A stretch of 64,000 bases of DNA from an uncultured Alphaproteobacteria bacterium (lineage in GTDB: Bacteria; Pseudomonadota; Alphaproteobacteria; HIMB59; GCA-002718135): positions 126,169-190,168 of the forward strand of contig CACMPM010000001.1 of the NCBI GenBank assembly GCA_902615625.1, written 5' to 3'. Below are positions 29,501-37,973 of this stretch, in pieces. The translations under genes and the position numbers were made by a program. Within the stretch, counting starts at the first letter, position 1. Each line of letters starts with the position of its first letter. The notes below the pieces were generated by a model. The model had not been told where the DNA came from. It saw only the letters and a program-made list of their open reading frames with translations, and searched no databases.

Positions 29501-30128
29501 TAAAGATATTAAAATTTTAGAAGCAATATTATTTGCATCAGGAGAGCCACTTGATGAAAATGATTTAAAAGAAAAAATTAAAGATACAAATAATATAAGT
29601 AAGCTATTACTAGAAATTAAAGATTTTTATAAAAATAGAGGTATTAATTTAATAAAAACTGGCAACAAATGGTCTTTTAGAACTGCTGAAGATCTCAGTG
29701 ATGAATTAACTATTTTTAAAACACAGAAAAGAAAATTATCAAGAGCAGCACTTGAAACATTATCTATAATTGCTTACCAACAACCAATAACAAGATCAGA
29801 AATTGAAAATATTAGAGGTGTTCAAATGGGTAGAGGCTCTTTAGATCATTTAATGGAAATAGGATGGATACGTCCTTCAGGTAGGAAAAGTATACCTGGT
29901 AAACCTACATTATGGTCTACCACAGATTTGTTTGTTGAACATTTTGGATTGAATAGTTTATCCGATTTACCTAATAAAGAGGAGCTAAAGGCAAGTGGTT
30001 TTCTAGATAAACGTGCTGCGATTGCAACTATAAGTGATATTGCCAAAAATGAAGAAAATTTACAAAGTAATGATAATTTAGAACAGGATGATGAAAATAA
30101 TATTGATGATTTTATTTCAAATAATTAA
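29493..30128 (+). CDS. scpB: Segregation and condensation protein B
   Basis: A 211-residue protein with two winged-helix domains. Family signatures are ILEAILFASGEPL at the N-terminus, LSRAALETLSIIAYQQPITRSEIENIRG (about 83-110) and IRPSGRKSIPGKPTLWSTT. It dimerises and regulates the ScpA-SMC ring. The acidic C-terminal tail is low complexity. It is the last gene of the conserved block before the sugar island; normally tatA would follow closely. Confidence 0.93.
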   Translation: MDNKDIKILEAILFASGEPLDENDLKEKIKDTNNISKLLLEIKDFYKNRGINLIKTGNKWSFRTAEDLSDELTIFKTQKRKLSRAALETLSIIAYQQPITRSEIENIRGVQMGRGSLDHLMEIGWIRPSGRKSIPGKPTLWSTTDLFVEHFGLNSLSDLPNKEELKASGFLDKRAAIATISDIAKNEENLQSNDNLEQDDENNIDDFISNN

Positions 30129-30162
30129 TTAATTCTTTTATTTTGTAAAATTTAACAAAAAA

Positions 30163-30984
30163 TTATCTAAAATGATTCTGAACATAATTAAAACTTCTTA
30201 AAGCACCATCAAATGGATCATCCCACGCATCAAGCTCATTTGTAATCCAACCTTTAAAGTTTATTTTTTTCAGAGTATCTATAACTTTTGAATTGTCTAG
30301 TTCACCTTCATCTAGAGGTGTAAATGAAAAAGGATTATTTTGAAATCCTTTTAGATGAACATAAGAAACTTTATCTTTTAAATCTAATATTAATTTACTA
30401 GGATCACCTCCTGCGGCGTATAAATGTGCTGTATCGGGACAGAAATTGATAGAAGTTAAATTAAAAATTTTTTTTACTTCATCTGGTCCTTCTACAATAG
30501 TAGATAAATGTGGATGATAATGTCCTTCAAGATCACTTTTCTCACATAATAAATCAATTTTATTTAATGAGTCTGCAAGTTTGTTATAATCATCATCATT
30601 TGTGCCATTAGATTTTTTTGCACCTCCACCAACAACAAAATGAATAGCTCCAAGTTCTTTAGAAATGTCTATAGATTTTTTGATTTTATCAATTTCTTCA
30701 TTTAAAATGTCATTAAATATTAAATTGCCACCGGAATAACTTGCAATTAACTTTAATCCAGAATTTGATAACATTGTCTTTAATTCACTTAATCTATCTT
30801 TATATTCAAACAAATTACCATCAAAAATTTCTATGCCTGTATAACCTGCTTTTGCAATATCTGTGAGTGGATCTTCTAATTTGCAGAAAGTCATATATGT
30901 TAGTTGAGTTATAGAAGTAACACCTACTGCATTACCTCCTAAATGACCCCAACAATTTGCGTGATATGCTAATTTTTCATACAT
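30163..30984 (-). CDS. Sugar phosphate isomerase/epimerase-like TIM-barrel enzyme
   Basis: A 273-residue AP-endonuclease-2 / xylose-isomerase-like TIM barrel. Metal-site motifs are HYHPH (155-159), CPDTAH (182-187), VHLKG (209-213) and a late Glu near TNELDAW. The family includes IolE, hydroxypyruvate isomerase, 3-keto-sugar epimerases and the beta-eliminating or hydrating partners of glycoside 3-dehydrogenases (LgdB and CarB/C types). It is divergently transcribed from an RbsB-type binding protein and a Gfo/Idh/MocA dehydrogenase, which favours a step after C3-oxidation of a sugar. No signal peptide; cytoplasmic. Confidence 0.8.
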   Translation of the reverse strand: MYEKLAYHANCWGHLGGNAVGVTSITQLTYMTFCKLEDPLTDIAKAGYTGIEIFDGNLFEYKDRLSELKTMLSNSGLKLIASYSGGNLIFNDILNEEIDKIKKSIDISKELGAIHFVVGGGAKKSNGTNDDDYNKLADSLNKIDLLCEKSDLEGHYHPHLSTIVEGPDEVKKIFNLTSINFCPDTAHLYAAGGDPSKLILDLKDKVSYVHLKGFQNNPFSFTPLDEGELDNSKVIDTLKKINFKGWITNELDAWDDPFDGALRSFNYVQNHFR

Positions 30985-31194
30985 TTTATGAAATTTAAAG
31001 TAACTTAAATATTACTCTGATGTTTATATAAATATTATCTATAAAAATTATATATAAAATTGAAAAAAACTATTTTTTTTAATGAAAAAAAGTAAATCAA
31101 AAATTTTAATAATTTTTTTATAAAATTTTTTTTCAGAATATTTTTATTTAAAACATGTATATTTATTACATTAAAAAATTATAGGGAGTATTAA
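30985..31194. promoter_or_regulatory. Divergent promoter region of the sugar island
   Basis: A 210-bp, extremely AT-rich spacer between the divergent epimerase-like gene and the sugar-binding-protein gene. It holds poly-A/T tracts (31063-31140) that should be curved, a small inverted repeat ATGTA-N7-TACAT at 31155-31171 just before the downstream start (possible operator), and an AGGGAG ribosome site at 31182-31187. No known operator could be recognised. The wHTH gene at 36168 is the obvious candidate regulator. Confidence 0.45.
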
Positions 31195-32319
31195 ATGTTA
31201 TATAATTACAAAAAATTCTTATTATTACCTCTTTTAATAATAATAAGTTTTTCATTTACAAAAATTAGTTATGCTATTGATCCAGATCAAGCACTAATTG
31301 ATTTACAGAAAACAACTTTAAGTTCTGGACCTCAGGGAGAAAGTCCAGTTTCTGCATCAGAAATTAATTTAACTGATGATGAGATTGCTAAAATTAAATC
31401 TATGAACGCAACTGCTGTTATTCCCATGCACATTATGAGTGGTGATTGGAGTCAAGCGCAAATCAATGGTTTAAAATATCAATTTGAAATTATGGGAGTG
31501 GAAGTTTTAGCTGTAACGGATGCAGGATTTAAAGCTGAAAAACAAGTTTCTGATATTGAAACTCTACTTGCCAAAAATCCTGATATATTAGTGTCAATTC
31601 CAACTGATCCTACTGCAACAGCTCCAGCTTATAGAAAAGCTGCAGAGCAAGGAGTGATTTTAGTATTTATGGATAATGTACCTTATGGTTTTGAGGCTGG
31701 TAAAGATTATATTTCCGCAGTTTCTGCAGATAACATGGGTAATGGAGTAGCTTCAGCACATCTAATGGCTAAAGCATTAAATCAAAAAGGTGAAATAGGA
31801 ATTGTTTTTCACGCTGCTGATTTCTTTGTTACTGCTCAACGTTATGAAGGTTTCAAAAAAACAATAAATGAAAACTATCCTGATATCAAAATAGTTGCAG
31901 AACAAGGAATAGGTGGACCTGATTTTCCAGGTGATGCTGAAAAAGCTGCTTCAGCAATGATTGTATCTAATCCAAATTTAGATGGAATTTGGGCAGTTTG
32001 GGATCAACCAGCAGAAGGTGTAATGGAGGCCGCAAGAGCAAATGGTAAAGATGACCTAATTATTACAACTATAGACTTAGGAGAAAATGTTGCGATATCT
32101 ATTGCAAAAGGTGGACCTGTTTATGGCTTAGGTGCGCAAAGACCATTTGATCAAGGTGTTACAGAGGCAAAATTAGCAGGATATGGGTTATTAGGTAAAG
32201 AAGCTCCTCCTTATGTAGCTTTACCAGCTCTACCTGTTGAAAAAGACAACATTTTAGATGCTTGGAATGCTGTTTATTATCAAGATGCTCCTGAAAGCAT
32301 CGTAAAATCTTTGGATTAA
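31195..32319 (+). CDS. Sugar ABC transporter substrate-binding protein, RbsB-like
   Basis: A 374-residue periplasmic binding protein of the type-I (PBP1, RbsB-like) fold. The signal peptide covers about residues 1-27, ending KISYA before IDPDQ. The core has TAVIPMHIMSGDWSQAQINGL, DIETLLAKNPDILVSIPTDP and the second-lobe GIWAVWDQPAEGV, typical for cyclic-sugar or polyol ligands. It is first in an operon with dehydrogenase, RbsA-like ATPase and RbsC-like permease. A stable hairpin follows the gene and should favour its mRNA. Ligand not determined by sequence. Confidence 0.88.
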   Translation: MLYNYKKFLLLPLLIIISFSFTKISYAIDPDQALIDLQKTTLSSGPQGESPVSASEINLTDDEIAKIKSMNATAVIPMHIMSGDWSQAQINGLKYQFEIMGVEVLAVTDAGFKAEKQVSDIETLLAKNPDILVSIPTDPTATAPAYRKAAEQGVILVFMDNVPYGFEAGKDYISAVSADNMGNGVASAHLMAKALNQKGEIGIVFHAADFFVTAQRYEGFKKTINENYPDIKIVAEQGIGGPDFPGDAEKAASAMIVSNPNLDGIWAVWDQPAEGVMEAARANGKDDLIITTIDLGENVAISIAKGGPVYGLGAQRPFDQGVTEAKLAGYGLLGKEAPPYVALPALPVEKDNILDAWNAVYYQDAPESIVKSLD

Positions 32320-32333
32320 GATTTTATATTTCT

Positions 32334-32362
32334 ATTAAGGTGAAGTTTATCTTCACCTTAAT
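32334..32362 (+). other. Stable hairpin after the sugar-binding-protein gene
   Basis: A perfect 12-bp stem, ATTAAGGTGAAG (32334-32345) with CTTCACCTTAAT (32351-32362), and a TTTAT loop. The trailing sequence is only weakly T-rich, so it is more likely an mRNA 3'-end protector or partial attenuator than a full terminator. It separates the binding protein from the rest of the operon. Confidence 0.75.
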
Positions 32363-32383
32363 TTCTAATTCTTGGAGGATAAA

Positions 32384-33544
32384 ATGAAAAAATTAAATGT
32401 CGCAGTAATCGGTGGTGGATTTATGGCAAAAGCACACTCAATGGCTTATGCTTGTATGCCAATGTTTTTTTGGCCAGCACCTGCAATTCCAATTCGTAAA
32501 GTAATAGTTGATATTAATGATAAAGCAGCTGAAGAAGCAAAGAACAAATTAGGATTTGAAAGCTATTCTTCTAATTGGAAAGAGGTCATAAATAATAAAG
32601 ATGTTGACGTAGTTGATATCTGCACACCAAATGACACTCATCTACCTATGGCTATAGAAGCTGCAAAAGCAGGTAAACATATTATCTGTGAAAAACCATT
32701 GGCTAGAAATTCTAATGAAGCTAAAGAAATGTATGAAGCTGTAAAAAATAATAATATTATTCATATGGTAGCATTTAATTATAGAAGGACACCTGCAGTT
32801 GCTTTGGCAAAAAAAATTATTTCTGAAAAGAAAATAGGAAAGATTTTAAATTTTCGAGGTACTTATTTACAGGATTGGCCAGCTGATCCAAATGGCCCTC
32901 TTTCTTGGAGATTTCAAAAAGAGATATCGGGATCTGGTACTTTGGGAGATATAGGCACACATGTTATTGATTTTGCGAGATATTTAGTAGGTGAAATTTC
33001 AAGTGTAAATTCAATTGCTAAAACATATGTGGAAACTCGTCCTGTTCAGCAAAGTGACAATGATACAATGGATATTAGAGTTGGTAATTCTGATGCAGAA
33101 AGAGCAAAGGTAGATGTAGATGACGAAATAATCACTATGTTAAAGTTTTCAAATGGAGCGGTTGGTAGTATTGAGGCAACAAGGAATGGTTATGGACGAA
33201 ACAATTACTTAACCTTTGAAATACATGGTACAGAAGGTTCAATCTGTTTTAATTATGAAAGAAGAGATGAGCTAAAAGTAATGTTTGCTAATATGCCAAG
33301 TGAAACAAGAGGATTTCAAACTATTTACACAGGACCAGCTCATCCTTATGGAGAAGGATTATGGCCAATACCAGGTCTTGGTATAGGTTATGGTGAGACA
33401 AAGATAATTGAGTGTTTTGATTTCTTTACTGCTATTAAAGAAAATCAACAACCTTCACCTAATTTCGAAGATGGGTATATTATTGCAAAAATTGCTGACT
33501 CAATAATAGAATCTAGTAATAAAGGAGAATGGATCCAAATTTAA
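32384..33544 (+). CDS. Gfo/Idh/MocA dehydrogenase resembling levoglucosan dehydrogenase (LgdA)
   Basis: A 386-residue NAD(P)-dependent sugar dehydrogenase. The Rossmann fingerprint is GGGFMAKAH (10-18), the CEKPLA catalytic-lysine motif is at 102-107 (Lys104), and GDIGTHVID (188-196) supplies Asp189 and His193. The unusual MPMFFWPAP segment (26-33) after the fingerprint, FNYRRTPA, TYLQDWPADP and the GPAHPYGEGLWPIPG stretch match, as I recall them, levoglucosan 3-dehydrogenase and its close relatives. Start at 32384 is set by GGAGG at 32374-32378; a TTG at 32372 overlaps that site. It overlaps the ATPase gene by 16 bp. Substrate is inferred. Confidence 0.82.
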   Translation: MKKLNVAVIGGGFMAKAHSMAYACMPMFFWPAPAIPIRKVIVDINDKAAEEAKNKLGFESYSSNWKEVINNKDVDVVDICTPNDTHLPMAIEAAKAGKHIICEKPLARNSNEAKEMYEAVKNNNIIHMVAFNYRRTPAVALAKKIISEKKIGKILNFRGTYLQDWPADPNGPLSWRFQKEISGSGTLGDIGTHVIDFARYLVGEISSVNSIAKTYVETRPVQQSDNDTMDIRVGNSDAERAKVDVDDEIITMLKFSNGAVGSIEATRNGYGRNNYLTFEIHGTEGSICFNYERRDELKVMFANMPSETRGFQTIYTGPAHPYGEGLWPIPGLGIGYGETKIIECFDFFTAIKENQQPSPNFEDGYIIAKIADSIIESSNKGEWIQI

Positions 33545-35112
33545 AAAATACTAATCTAGTTTCCAAAATAGCAGTTGAAATGCAAAATATTTCAAAGAGT
33601 TTTGGAGGAATAAAAGCTCTTGATAACGTAAACATTTCTTTTGGTTATGGTAAAATACATGCTTTACTTGGAGAAAATGGCGCAGGTAAATCTACTATTT
33701 TAAAAATACTGAGAGGTATTTATTCACCTAATCATGGAAAAATAATAGTTGATAATAATCTATTAGAAAATTTGACACCTCAATCTGCTAAAAAATTTGG
33801 AATAGGTATGATTTTTCAAGAAATGAGCTTAGTGCAATCTTTGACAGTTGCTCAAAATATTTATTTAGGTAATGAGCCATCAAAGAAATTTGGTTTTATT
33901 AATGATAATTTATTGATTAAAAATTCAAATAAAATTTTTGAATCAATGGGTATTAATATTGATGGAAAAGAAAAATTAGAAAACTTATCTACAGGCCAAC
34001 AACAACTTGTAGAAATTGCCAAAGCAATATCACAGGAAGCAAAGATTTTGGTATTAGATGAACCCACCTCTGCCTTAACATCTTCAGAAGTCAAAATATT
34101 ATTTAAATTGTTAATTAAGCTTAAGTCTGAGGGAAAATGTATTGTTTATGTATCTCATAGAATGGAGGAAATTTTTCAAATATCTGATCTAATAACAGTA
34201 TTAAGAGATGGCAAGATAATTAATACAAAAAAAATAATTGATTATAACTTAAAAACATTAATTTCAGATATAATGGGTAAGGATACTCGTAATCTATCCG
34301 ATATTAATAAGCAAAATAATATAAAATCTTCAAATATTTTAGAAGTTAAAAATTTATCTAGTTTTTCAAAAGGAGGAAACTATAATTTTAAACTTCGTAA
34401 AGGTGAAGTTCTTGGCATAGCGGGATTATTAGGTTCAGGAAGAAGTAGAATTGCAAGACTTCTTTTTGGGATAGAGCCCATAGGTTCAGGTAATATTAAA
34501 TATAATGGTAAAAAAATTAAAATTAAAAATACTTCAGACTCTAAAAAACTGAAAATTGCTTTAGTTCCTGAAGATAGGAGATTGCAAGGCTTAATACTTA
34601 ATCATTCAATAAAAAGTAATATAGAACTGCCTAATTTAAATTTTTATACAAATTATTTATTTTTGAATGATTATAAATCTAAAAAAGATGCACAAAAAGT
34701 TATTGATGATCTTAATATTAAGACTTTAAATAAAAATGATATTGTAACAACTCTATCAGGAGGTAATCAGCAAAAAGTAGTTATAGGAAAATGGAACATT
34801 TCAGAACCAGATATTTTAATATTAGATGAGGCTACAGCTGGGATTGACATCGGATCAAAGGGTGAAATTCTAGAATTAATTAATTCTTTGTCCAAAAAAG
34901 GAAAATCTATTATTTTTATTTCTTCTGAATTAACAGAACTCATTGCAATAAGTGACCGTATTGCAATAGTTTCAAACGGTGAAATTAATAAAATAATAAA
35001 TAAAAAAGATCTTCTTTCTAACAAAAGAGAAGATGATACTACTGAACAGTATTTGCAATTTCTAATACAAACTAATAGTGGAAGCTTAAATGAGAATTAT
35101 GAATATAATTAG
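33529..35112 (+). CDS. Sugar ABC transporter ATP-binding protein, RbsA-like (two ATPase domains)
   Basis: A 527-residue fused ATPase. The first domain has Walker A GENGAGKST (about 46-54), LSTGQQQLVE and VLDEPTSAL. The second has a degenerate Walker A (GLLGSGRSR) with LSGGNQQKV and ILDEATAGID, the normal RbsA asymmetry. It drives uptake through the RbsC-like permease. The ATG at 33529 lies only 2 bp from a GGAG and may not be the true start; Met18 (33580) is an alternative. It overlaps the dehydrogenase by 16 bp and the permease by about 23 bp. Confidence 0.9.
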   Translation: MDPNLKNTNLVSKIAVEMQNISKSFGGIKALDNVNISFGYGKIHALLGENGAGKSTILKILRGIYSPNHGKIIVDNNLLENLTPQSAKKFGIGMIFQEMSLVQSLTVAQNIYLGNEPSKKFGFINDNLLIKNSNKIFESMGINIDGKEKLENLSTGQQQLVEIAKAISQEAKILVLDEPTSALTSSEVKILFKLLIKLKSEGKCIVYVSHRMEEIFQISDLITVLRDGKIINTKKIIDYNLKTLISDIMGKDTRNLSDINKQNNIKSSNILEVKNLSSFSKGGNYNFKLRKGEVLGIAGLLGSGRSRIARLLFGIEPIGSGNIKYNGKKIKIKNTSDSKKLKIALVPEDRRLQGLILNHSIKSNIELPNLNFYTNYLFLNDYKSKKDAQKVIDDLNIKTLNKNDIVTTLSGGNQQKVVIGKWNISEPDILILDEATAGIDIGSKGEILELINSLSKKGKSIIFISSELTELIAISDRIAIVSNGEINKIINKKDLLSNKREDDTTEQYLQFLIQTNSGSLNENYEYN

Positions 35113-36061
35113 TCAAATATTTACAAATTTTAAAAAAACTTGGAGACAAAATATTATTTATATTGGTTTTATTTGTGTTTTCTTATTTTTTTCTATTACT
35201 TTATACGATAGCGGCTTTCTCAGTACAAATAATCTACTAAATATTGGCAGACAAACTGCCATTATAGCTATTATGGCAGTTGCAATGACTTTAGTGTTAT
35301 CTTGTGGTGAAATTGATCTTTCAGTAGGTTCTGTTGCAGGCTTAGCTTCAGTGACAACTGCTCTGGCCATTAAATATTATGGTATTTTCATTGGAATTTC
35401 AGTTGGTTTAAGTACAGGATTGATTATTGGAATATTGAATGGATTGATATCTACAAGGTTAATGGTTCCAACATTCTTAACTACTTTAGCAATGATGGGT
35501 ATTGCTAAGGGTGTTTCAATGTGGATTTCAGGAACCCGGTCAATATCAATAATCGATGACTCATATACAAATTTTTTTGGGTCTGGTGATTTATTTGGTT
35601 TGCCAAGTTTATTATTTTGGATGTTAATAATTGGTCTAATTGGACATTTTGTTTATAGACATACAAAATTTGGAAGGCAAATATTAGCAGTTGGGGGAAA
35701 TGTTGTTTCAGCAAATTACAGTGGGATAAATACTAATAAAATAAAATTTTATGTATTAATTATTTCATCACTTATGGCTTCACTTGCTGGCATGTTATAT
35801 GCTGGTAGATTGCATACTGGAAGATTTCAATTAGGTGAAGGTGATGAACTTTCTGTAATAGCTGCTGCGGTACTTGGTGGAACTAGTTTGTTTGGAGGCA
35901 AGGGAACTGTTATTGGTTCAATTATAGGTGCTCTAATGATAGGGGTAATTAATAATGGATTAATTTTAATGGGTTTAGAATATCCACAGCAACTTATAGC
36001 TAGAGGATCAATAATTATTTTAGCAGTTGCAATTAGTGAATCTGGTAAAAATAAACGTTAA
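35090..36061 (+). CDS. Sugar ABC transporter permease, RbsC-like
   Basis: A 323-residue inner-membrane protein with about nine or ten spans. Typical RbsC patterns are CGEIDLSVGSVAGLASV (about 67-83), VPTFLTTLAMMGIAKG, and AAVLGGTSLFGGKGTVIGSIIGA near the C-terminus. It forms the channel for the island's sugar importer. Two in-frame starts (35090 and 35099) both lie inside the ATPase gene; the sequence does not decide between them. Confidence 0.9.
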   Translation: MRIMNIISQIFTNFKKTWRQNIIYIGFICVFLFFSITLYDSGFLSTNNLLNIGRQTAIIAIMAVAMTLVLSCGEIDLSVGSVAGLASVTTALAIKYYGIFIGISVGLSTGLIIGILNGLISTRLMVPTFLTTLAMMGIAKGVSMWISGTRSISIIDDSYTNFFGSGDLFGLPSLLFWMLIIGLIGHFVYRHTKFGRQILAVGGNVVSANYSGINTNKIKFYVLIISSLMASLAGMLYAGRLHTGRFQLGEGDELSVIAAAVLGGTSLFGGKGTVIGSIIGALMIGVINNGLILMGLEYPQQLIARGSIIILAVAISESGKNKR

Positions 36062-36167
36062 GCTTGTTGAATATTAAATTACGATTTTATTAATTAAAAA
36101 AATTCTTATAACGTAATATCTTTTTTAATTATTTCTATATTATATTTAATATATAATAATAAAATAT
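36062..36167. promoter_or_regulatory. Spacer before the island regulator
   Basis: 106 bp of AT-rich non-coding sequence. It has an inverted repeat ATTACG / CGTAAT (about 36080-36115) and a TATATTATATTTAATATATAAT tract near 36137-36158 that could serve as a promoter or autoregulatory operator. No terminator is evident. Confidence 0.35.
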
Positions 36168-36542
36168 ATGGCTTTGCTAAATAAAAATGAATGTGAAAAA
36201 TATGTTTCATCATTTATTGATATGATTGATTATAGGCAATCAAATAAAACATTTAAACATATAACTAGAAATAATGATTATTGGAAAATGATTAATTATA
36301 TTATGTTAGATTACTATACTGGCAAAAATACAAGTGAGTATGAACTAATTAAGAAGCTTAATTGTTCTACAATGACAGCTAATAACTATATTTATGATTT
36401 GGTTGAATCAAAATTAATATTTAAAAAACCTAATAAGCAAGATTTAAGGAAAATTCATTTAGTCCCAACCAAAATACTAATTGAACACATGTCCGAATAT
36501 ATAAAAAGATTTAAAGAATTTTATGCTCAAACAAAATTTTAA
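36168..36542 (+). CDS. Small winged-helix transcriptional regulator, MarR-like
   Basis: A 124-residue protein with no signal peptide. The middle shows a helix-turn-helix pattern (TSEYELIKKLNCSTMTANNYIYDLVESKLIFKK, about 55-88) followed by a beta-wing (NKQDLRKIHLVPT), and the C-terminal helix resembles the MarR dimerisation helix. It lies 9 bp before the GH32-like gene in the same direction, and after the transporter operon, so it is the likely local sugar-responsive regulator. Sequence identity to a named family is weak. Confidence 0.65.
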   Translation: MALLNKNECEKYVSSFIDMIDYRQSNKTFKHITRNNDYWKMINYIMLDYYTGKNTSEYELIKKLNCSTMTANNYIYDLVESKLIFKKPNKQDLRKIHLVPTKILIEHMSEYIKRFKEFYAQTKF

Positions 36543-36551
36543 TTTATAATA

Positions 36552-37907
36552 ATGTATAGACCCAAGTTTCATATTACTACTAAAAGTTTTCTACAAAACT
36601 CTATGCTTACTTTTTATAATAAAGAGTATCATATTTTTTTTCTGACTCCAGATAGATTAAGAGAAACAAATTATCATGCATGGGGTCATGTAAGATCAAA
36701 AGATTTAATTAATTGGAAGGAAGAAACCATAGCAATAAATCCAGATAAAGAATACGATAAGTATGGATGTTGGAATGGTAGTGTAATCGTTAGTAATGAT
36801 ATTCCATACTTATTTTATACTGGTATTAATCCTGAATCTCAGTGTTTAGCTGTAGGAGATAAAAATTTTAAAAATTTTGAAAAATATGAACAGAATCCAA
36901 TTATTAAAAATAGACCTGAAGAATTAAATATTACTGGTTTCAGAGATCCCTTTGTATGGCTCGATAAAGATAATAAATGGAAAATGATTTTAGGTTGTGG
37001 AATTCATGGCATTATAGGTACTCATTATTCAGGTGGCGGTATATTAATATATGAATCAACTAATTTATATTCATGGGAATATAAAGGAGTGATGTTTAAA
37101 AGAAGTTTAGCAGAGGGTGGTTTTTATTTTGAGACTCCAAACTTTGCAAATATAGGAGAATTAGATATTTTAATGGTTTCACCAAACTCACCAGTCATAT
37201 ACTGGTTGGGAGAGTTTTCAAATAATAATTTTGAATCTAAGACTTCAGCTAAAAGATTAGATTTTGGTGATTGTTTTTACGCACCTAGTATTTTTAAAGA
37301 TAATTTACAAAATCGAACTTTGTTATCAGGGTGGATAACTGAAGCAGGTGAAAATCATAGACAAAAAAACTTTGGTTGTATTGCTATTCCAAAAGAGATT
37401 AGTTTAATAGAAAATTTAAAACTAAAAATAGTTCCTGCTCACGAATTAAAAAATTTAAGAAGTGAATGCATTATTAATAAAAAAATAATAATTGGATCAA
37501 AAAAAAATTATTTAAAAAATTTTGAAAGTAATACTTTTGAAATACAATTATCTTTTAACGGAAATAATAAAGGAAAGATAAATTTTAATTTTTGCAAAAA
37601 TCCAAAAACAGATGAAAAAACAACCATATTAATTGATTTTAATAATAATAAATTTGAATTAAACAGATCTTTGTCATCAAAAAAAGAGGGTTCTGATTTA
37701 TCCTTGATTGAAACAAAAATATCTACCTCGAAATTAATGGTGCATATGTTCGTTGATGTTTCTGTAATTGAAATTTTTCTCAATTATGAAAGAGTTATTA
37801 CTAGCAGGATCTACCCAAGTCCAAATTCTAAAAAATTAGAATTATTCTCATTAAATGATAATATAGAAGCAGATATTAAATTATGGGATCTAGTAAGGTA
37901 TAAATAA
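36552..37907 (+). CDS. GH32-like five-blade beta-propeller protein lacking the canonical nucleophile
   Basis: A 451-residue, cytoplasmic (no signal peptide) protein of glycoside hydrolase family 32 (beta-fructosidases). Matching parts are RPKFH at the start, AWGHVRSKDLINW (44-56), WNGS (74-77), the transition-state motif FRDPF (Asp132), the acid/base Glu194 in FETPNF, and a C-terminal beta-sandwich. The nucleophile motif, normally WMNDPNG, reads FLQNSML (13-19): the catalytic Asp is not there. The rest is well preserved and the frame is intact, so decay is unlikely. It may bind rather than hydrolyse sugars, or use another mechanism. Confidence 0.75.
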   Translation: MYRPKFHITTKSFLQNSMLTFYNKEYHIFFLTPDRLRETNYHAWGHVRSKDLINWKEETIAINPDKEYDKYGCWNGSVIVSNDIPYLFYTGINPESQCLAVGDKNFKNFEKYEQNPIIKNRPEELNITGFRDPFVWLDKDNKWKMILGCGIHGIIGTHYSGGGILIYESTNLYSWEYKGVMFKRSLAEGGFYFETPNFANIGELDILMVSPNSPVIYWLGEFSNNNFESKTSAKRLDFGDCFYAPSIFKDNLQNRTLLSGWITEAGENHRQKNFGCIAIPKEISLIENLKLKIVPAHELKNLRSECIINKKIIIGSKKNYLKNFESNTFEIQLSFNGNNKGKINFNFCKNPKTDEKTTILIDFNNNKFELNRSLSSKKEGSDLSLIETKISTSKLMVHMFVDVSVIEIFLNYERVITSRIYPSPNSKKLELFSLNDNIEADIKLWDLVRYK

Positions 37908-37973
37908 TTGCACAAATATTAAATTAATTCTTATAATTCTTGTTTTTTTCCATAGTTTCCGTATAAGCCATTT

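Follow-up and report, generated by a model that had tools for sequence, protein, structure and literature searches.

A likely levoglucosan front end inserted between scpB and tatA in a small alphaproteobacterial genome of the HIMB59 lineage

Levoglucosan is the sugar left by wood burning. It serves as a biomass-burning marker, and an estimated 0.7 million tonnes are deposited per year (PMC10066097). The order of reactions in its oxidative degradation has been established for Bacillus smithii (PMC7676230), beginning with the dehydrogenase LgdA. LgdB1, a protein of about 275 residues, is found in 253 of 265 LgdA neighbourhoods, but LgdC is not nearby in about half of the published LgdA loci; the hydratase or the reductase is often absent, and the missing enzymes have been an open point (PMC10066097). 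For Agrobacterium tumefaciens, the hydratase AtHYD acts with a Gfo reductase that converts 3-keto-glucose back to glucose, the evidence for hydration being termed preliminary in the 2023 paper (PMC10628242). Here we analyse a 64,000-nucleotide stretch of an uncultured alphaproteobacterium (hereafter the window), in which an earlier note had recognised an LgdA-like dehydrogenase with a TIM-barrel partner and a sugar importer at positions 30163-36061. Genes of these five kinds also cluster in other Alphaproteobacteria, in Gammaproteobacteria, in Actinobacteria and in Deinococcus; Bacilli have part of the set. We consider it likely that the block to which these genes belong is a levoglucosan front end that would feed a 3-keto-glucose back end encoded elsewhere in the genome. 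The earlier note had left the substrate as levoglucosan or another 3-oxidisable glycoside; of the two, the sequence evidence favours levoglucosan.

The dehydrogenase, its TIM-barrel partner and the importer

The dehydrogenase (386 residues, 32384-33544, forward strand; best start codon the ATG at 32384, with GGAGG upstream) matched the NCBIfam levoglucosan dehydrogenase model NF052479 over its full length (691.3 bits, E = 2.5e-208, model positions 2-386), passing the equivalog cut-off of 650 and exceeding every other named NCBIfam family by more than 500 bits. On the same scale LgdA proteins of annotated lgd clusters scored 724-749 bits, other Gfo/Idh/MocA proteins less than 140, and a sister subfamily from Sinorhizobium (54% identity) 559.7, below the cut-off. 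A search of the PDB placed the crystallised levoglucosan dehydrogenase (LGDH) of Pseudarthrobacter, 6a3f, at the top (590 bits, E = 1.3e-176; 65% identity over 383 columns), the next chain reaching 297 bits. The two segments singled out earlier, MPMFFWPAP and GPAHPYGEGLWPIPG, are both present and align almost residue by residue with 6a3f. The search against characterised LgdA proteins thus bears out the LgdA-like call, and the contrary outcome named in the earlier note, that an inositol, glucose-fructose or Gal-type dehydrogenase would be the nearer relative, was not found (691 against 151 bits for IolG; 590 against 297 in the PDB); on these scores we rejected assignment as an inositol, glucose-fructose or Gal80-type dehydrogenase.

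The catalytic residues proposed for LgdA, E103 and H193 (PMC10066097), are conserved with their numbering unchanged. The protein keeps 154 of the 164 columns that are invariant across 18 LgdA proteins of lgd clusters, and 32 of the 35 positions that distinguish the lgd clade from the 54% sister subfamily. In a phylogenetic tree the lgd group and that subfamily are split with 100/100 support, and the window LgdA falls inside the lgd group.

The divergent TIM barrel (273 residues, 30163-30984, reverse strand; Pfam PF01261) is the putative 3-keto-levoglucosan beta-eliminase. It shares 52-56% identity with the TIM barrels adjacent to lgdA in alphaproteobacterial clusters; for those of Arthrobacter, Metabacillus, Klebsiella and Deinococcus the figure is 40-45%. 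Its length agrees with that given for LgdB1, and it retains 61 of the 64 invariant residues of proteins in the LgdB1 position, which makes the partner claimed in the earlier note an LgdB1-type protein. An AlphaFold2 model (mean predicted local distance difference test score, pLDDT, 89) had IolE as its nearest fold, and the 3-keto-glucoside epimerase YcjR and the 2-hydroxy-3-keto-glucal hydratase also ranked near the top; the fold alone is not decisive for the reaction. A search that included the solved O-glycoside eliminase gave no match to it at E 0.001.

A dedicated sugar importer, one of the marks of membership in the lgd pathway, adjoins LgdA. It comprises a periplasmic binding protein (374 residues, 31195-32319; PF13407), a CUT2-type (Rbs-type) ATPase with two PF00005 domains (527 residues, 33529-35112) and a CUT2-type permease (323 residues, 35090-36061; PF02653), all on the forward strand. 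For the binding protein, identity to its counterparts is 57-74% in most other lgd clusters and 40% in Bauldia, and no named NCBIfam sugar binder scored it above its cut-off. The ATPase adjoins lgdA in most other lgd clusters too, and the permease shares 63-68% identity with those of the Boseongicola and Roseiarcus clusters. The RbsBAC-type importer noted beside the dehydrogenase is accordingly the one found in other lgd clusters.

Predicted pathway and a back end on a second contig

These family assignments suggest the following route. The importer would bring levoglucosan into the cytoplasm, where LgdA would oxidise its C3 hydroxyl with NAD to give 3-keto-levoglucosan; beta-elimination by the LgdB1-type protein would then open the 1,6-anhydro bridge, yielding 2-hydroxy-3-keto-glucal. 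A hydratase would convert this to 3-keto-glucose, and a Gfo/Idh/MocA reductase would return 3-keto-glucose to glucose with NADH. Import and oxidative opening are very probably the work of the block. It contains neither a hydratase nor a 3-keto-glucose reductase, and the last two steps are probably carried out by enzymes encoded on another contig, C5, of the same genome. The substrate, the direction of the reactions and the cooperation of the two loci are what we infer from sequence.

Searching the whole genome located the hydratase and the reductase next to each other on C5 (C5:90687-92879; L072:10673-12880), as in lgd clusters. The LgdC-like Gfo/Idh/MocA reductase (C5:90687-91817) scored 432 bits against a model of enzymes in the LgdC position, to which it is 44-47% identical (47% in Rhodobacteraceae SC52; 28% to that of Arthrobacter). 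The predicted 2-hydroxy-3-keto-glucal hydratase (C5:91827-92879) is 65% identical (560 bits) to the A. tumefaciens structure 8ro4, which bears that enzyme name, and 70% identical to the hydratase of the Agrobacterium lgd cluster. Within the genus the hydratase is present in 72 of 101 genomes of mixed completeness, only one of which has LgdA; of 20 hydratase loci read, 19 have the reductase as its neighbour. Glucokinase gave a weak match in the genome.

The genome holds other genes of these kinds. A second LgdC-like reductase (369 bits; L073:206-1396, contig C16) lies beside a short-chain dehydrogenase/reductase gene and an altronate-dehydratase-like gene. Two more Gfo/Idh/MocA dehydrogenases stand beside ThuA-family proteins with sugar importer genes near (L107:10848-12717 and L074:474-2316), and are probably further sugar-oxidation modules in this small genome. 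In the window itself, an iolC-like kinase (just above its cut-off), an iolB-like isomerase (below its cut-off) and a class II aldolase follow one another at 184-2844; these are probable genes of inositol catabolism, separate from the lgd block.

The insertion between scpB and tatA and its cargo

All five genes reported at 30163-36061 are in place with intact frames. As an extent, however, that interval is too short: the block is a 7.8-kb insertion in the gap between scpB and tatA, spanning about 30129-37924, because genes for a winged-helix-like and a GH32-like protein lie inside it as well. An imperfect 26-nt direct repeat marks its two edges (family D6; 85% identity, spacing 7795), the left copy at 30118-30143 and the right at 37913-37938, both forward, whereas a congener (G021) has an empty site with a single copy. 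It is this comparison of a repeat-bounded block with a one-copy empty site that places both additional genes within the same inserted stretch. Among 30 genomes with the scpB locus, 20 have scpB followed by the tat genes within the locus, that is, an empty site; near relatives, in which tatC is 98-100% identical, make up 12 of the 20. Of the 162 genomes of the order this one has LgdA, and searches of the other 161 found none. The distribution and the empty site indicate that this lineage acquired the block, and did so recently when set against congeners whose flanks are almost the same. Its G+C content (GC) and G+C content at third codon positions (GC3, 0.12-0.18) equal those of the flanks and give no sign of foreign origin, so that the case for transfer rests on distribution and the empty site only. 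As the block has the AT-rich composition of its host, the donor was probably AT-rich too, and such a donor would point to a reservoir of lgd islands that has yet to be sampled. The host genome is 1.31 Mb (genus genomes are mostly 0.9-1.6 Mb) and the window has 28.5% GC, a small AT-rich genome that fits the marine type.

The gap is an insertion hotspot in the genus, empty in 20 genomes and otherwise occupied by varied cargo (loci L018-L046 and L055-L062): glutamate-synthase-like together with glutamine-synthetase-like genes, an exonuclease, an Mrr-type nuclease or, in the genome studied here, the lgd block. In G037 and G083 about 1.1 kb separates scpB from the tat genes (L028, L034, L057), and the G037 stretch encodes a 257-residue protein of the RNase T/exonuclease family. 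No integrase was seen in the hotspot inserts read, and IMG/VR scans found no phage-borne copies.

The winged-helix-like protein (124 residues, 36168-36542, forward) gave weak matches to MarR and helix-turn-helix models below their cut-offs, no plasmid match and no convincing PDB match; it is possibly a regulator of the island. The GH32-like protein (451 residues, 36552-37907, forward; PF00251 and PF08244) has sucrose-6-phosphate hydrolase and beta-fructosidase as its best solved relatives, but reads FLQN--SML where homologues have WMNDPNGL and so lacks the WMNDPNG motif, with its nucleophile Asp, of active GH32 enzymes. The loss of this Asp makes ordinary hydrolysis doubtful. The RDP motif and an acid-bearing ECP-type motif are kept, a combination unusual among the aligned homologues. 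None of the other annotated lgd clusters that we read has a counterpart, and among congeners there is a single, distant homologue (30%); the nearest plasmid homologues by score, from haloarchaea (about 31% identity), keep NDPNG and adjoin other transporters. An AlphaFold2 model built from a two-row alignment had a pLDDT of 34, too low for its fold to count as evidence. One might suppose that the protein, as a binder or as a lyase on a 3-keto-glycoside, serves the oxidation-elimination route, that a glycoside, fructosyl or other, is processed by the block besides or instead of levoglucosan, and that the genus back end is a shared socket for exchangeable front ends; we regard this combination as improbable.

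Substrate of the block and comparison with known systems

Several observations weigh against levoglucosan as the substrate or against a complete route. The branch of the window LgdA is long (0.9) and without near relatives, the tree does not resolve its position within the lgd group, and its NF052479 score is the lowest among the lgd-type LgdA proteins tested with hmmscan; substrate drift is therefore possible. The C5 pair is unlinked to the block and also present in congeners that lack LgdA, and for this reason it probably acts on a different 3-keto-sugar in everyday use. The block has no regulator of the usual ROK or LacI type; it has an unrelated regulator-like gene instead, as well as the GH32-like gene. 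The genome is 88% complete. In a rival reading, the same machinery has a different 3-oxidisable sugar as its natural substrate, be it mannosan, galactosan, a small glucoside or a marine glycoside, which it would open by oxidation and elimination. The long branch, the 10 deviations in the 164 invariant columns, the GH32-like gene that no other lgd cluster read contains, the Gfo/Idh/MocA and ThuA modules elsewhere in the genome, and the cleavage of phlorizin and puerarin by operons of like logic (PMC10628242) would all suit such a substrate. We nevertheless think it unlikely: most of the LgdA-specific positions (32 of 35) are kept and the family cut-off is passed, the binding protein is as close as 57-74% to that of most known lgd clusters, and the TIM barrel did not match the solved O-glycoside eliminase at E 0.001.

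Folds alone would also accommodate an inositol dehydrogenase and an inosose dehydratase with an inositol importer, since the Pfam folds are alike, IolG and IolE give weak matches (150.8 and 89.9 bits) and an iolC/iolB-like cluster lies in the window at 184-2844. Those scores are far under the respective cut-offs (355 and 290), however, and the levoglucosan model is ahead by 540 bits, making such a pair very improbable. A chimeric contig or a mis-binned fragment, which the occurrence in a single genome of 162 and the draft state of the assembly (32 contigs) might suggest, is hardly credible either: the block lies inside a 192.5-kb contig with congener-type flanks on both sides, its GC and GC3 match these flanks, and the same site holds other inserts in congeners.

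Taken as a levoglucosan front end, the block adds to a pathway and protein families that are already known; what is new is the lineage that hosts it, its split layout and the clean insertion, together with the finding that an adjacent gene pair elsewhere in the genome, whose hydratase is widespread in the genus, could supply the missing steps. A literature search returned no report of levoglucosan use by SAR11/HIMB59-type plankton. With hydratase and reductase in the same genome, and the hydratase common in the genus, the published gap becomes directly testable. Reading levoglucosan in water or sediment presumes its persistence, and a lineage of streamlined plankton that has this pathway and an importer would be a sink for it.

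Of the described systems, the lgd cluster of B. smithii S-2701M (LgdA, LgdB1, LgdB2 and LgdC; PMC7676230) shares with the window the LgdA and LgdB1 types and a sugar ATP-binding cassette importer, and the window genome contains the full enzyme set; the window differs in that it has a single permease instead of two, that LgdB1 is encoded on the opposite strand, that a LacI regulator is absent and that the back end lies on another contig. The LGDH of Pseudarthrobacter phenanthrenivorans (6a3f, 6a3g, 6a3i, 6a3j) shares the catalytic residues, but is an actinobacterial enzyme, whereas the window LgdA is on its own long branch. In the A. tumefaciens AtOGE/AtHYD/Gfo operon (PMC10628242; 8ro4) the hydratase is 65% identical to that of the genus and the Gfo reductase adjoins it; the front end of that operon, in contrast, is GlycDH with an eliminase that has no sequence match to the window LgdB1 and acts on phlorizin, where the window uses LgdA and LgdB1. 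The closest arrangements are alphaproteobacterial. In Paracoccus (L050), Agrobacterium (L098) and Boseongicola (L011) the binding protein, LgdA, ATPase and permease are ordered as here, with LgdB1 at the binding-protein end. In the Paracoccus and Agrobacterium clusters the permease is followed by another TIM barrel and another Gfo enzyme, and a ROK regulator is divergently oriented. None of these occurs in the window block, where the winged-helix-like and GH32-like genes come after the permease. Shinella, of which S. sumterensis is a reported levoglucosan degrader (PMC10066097), has lgdB1, the binding protein and lgdA in the same order as the window.

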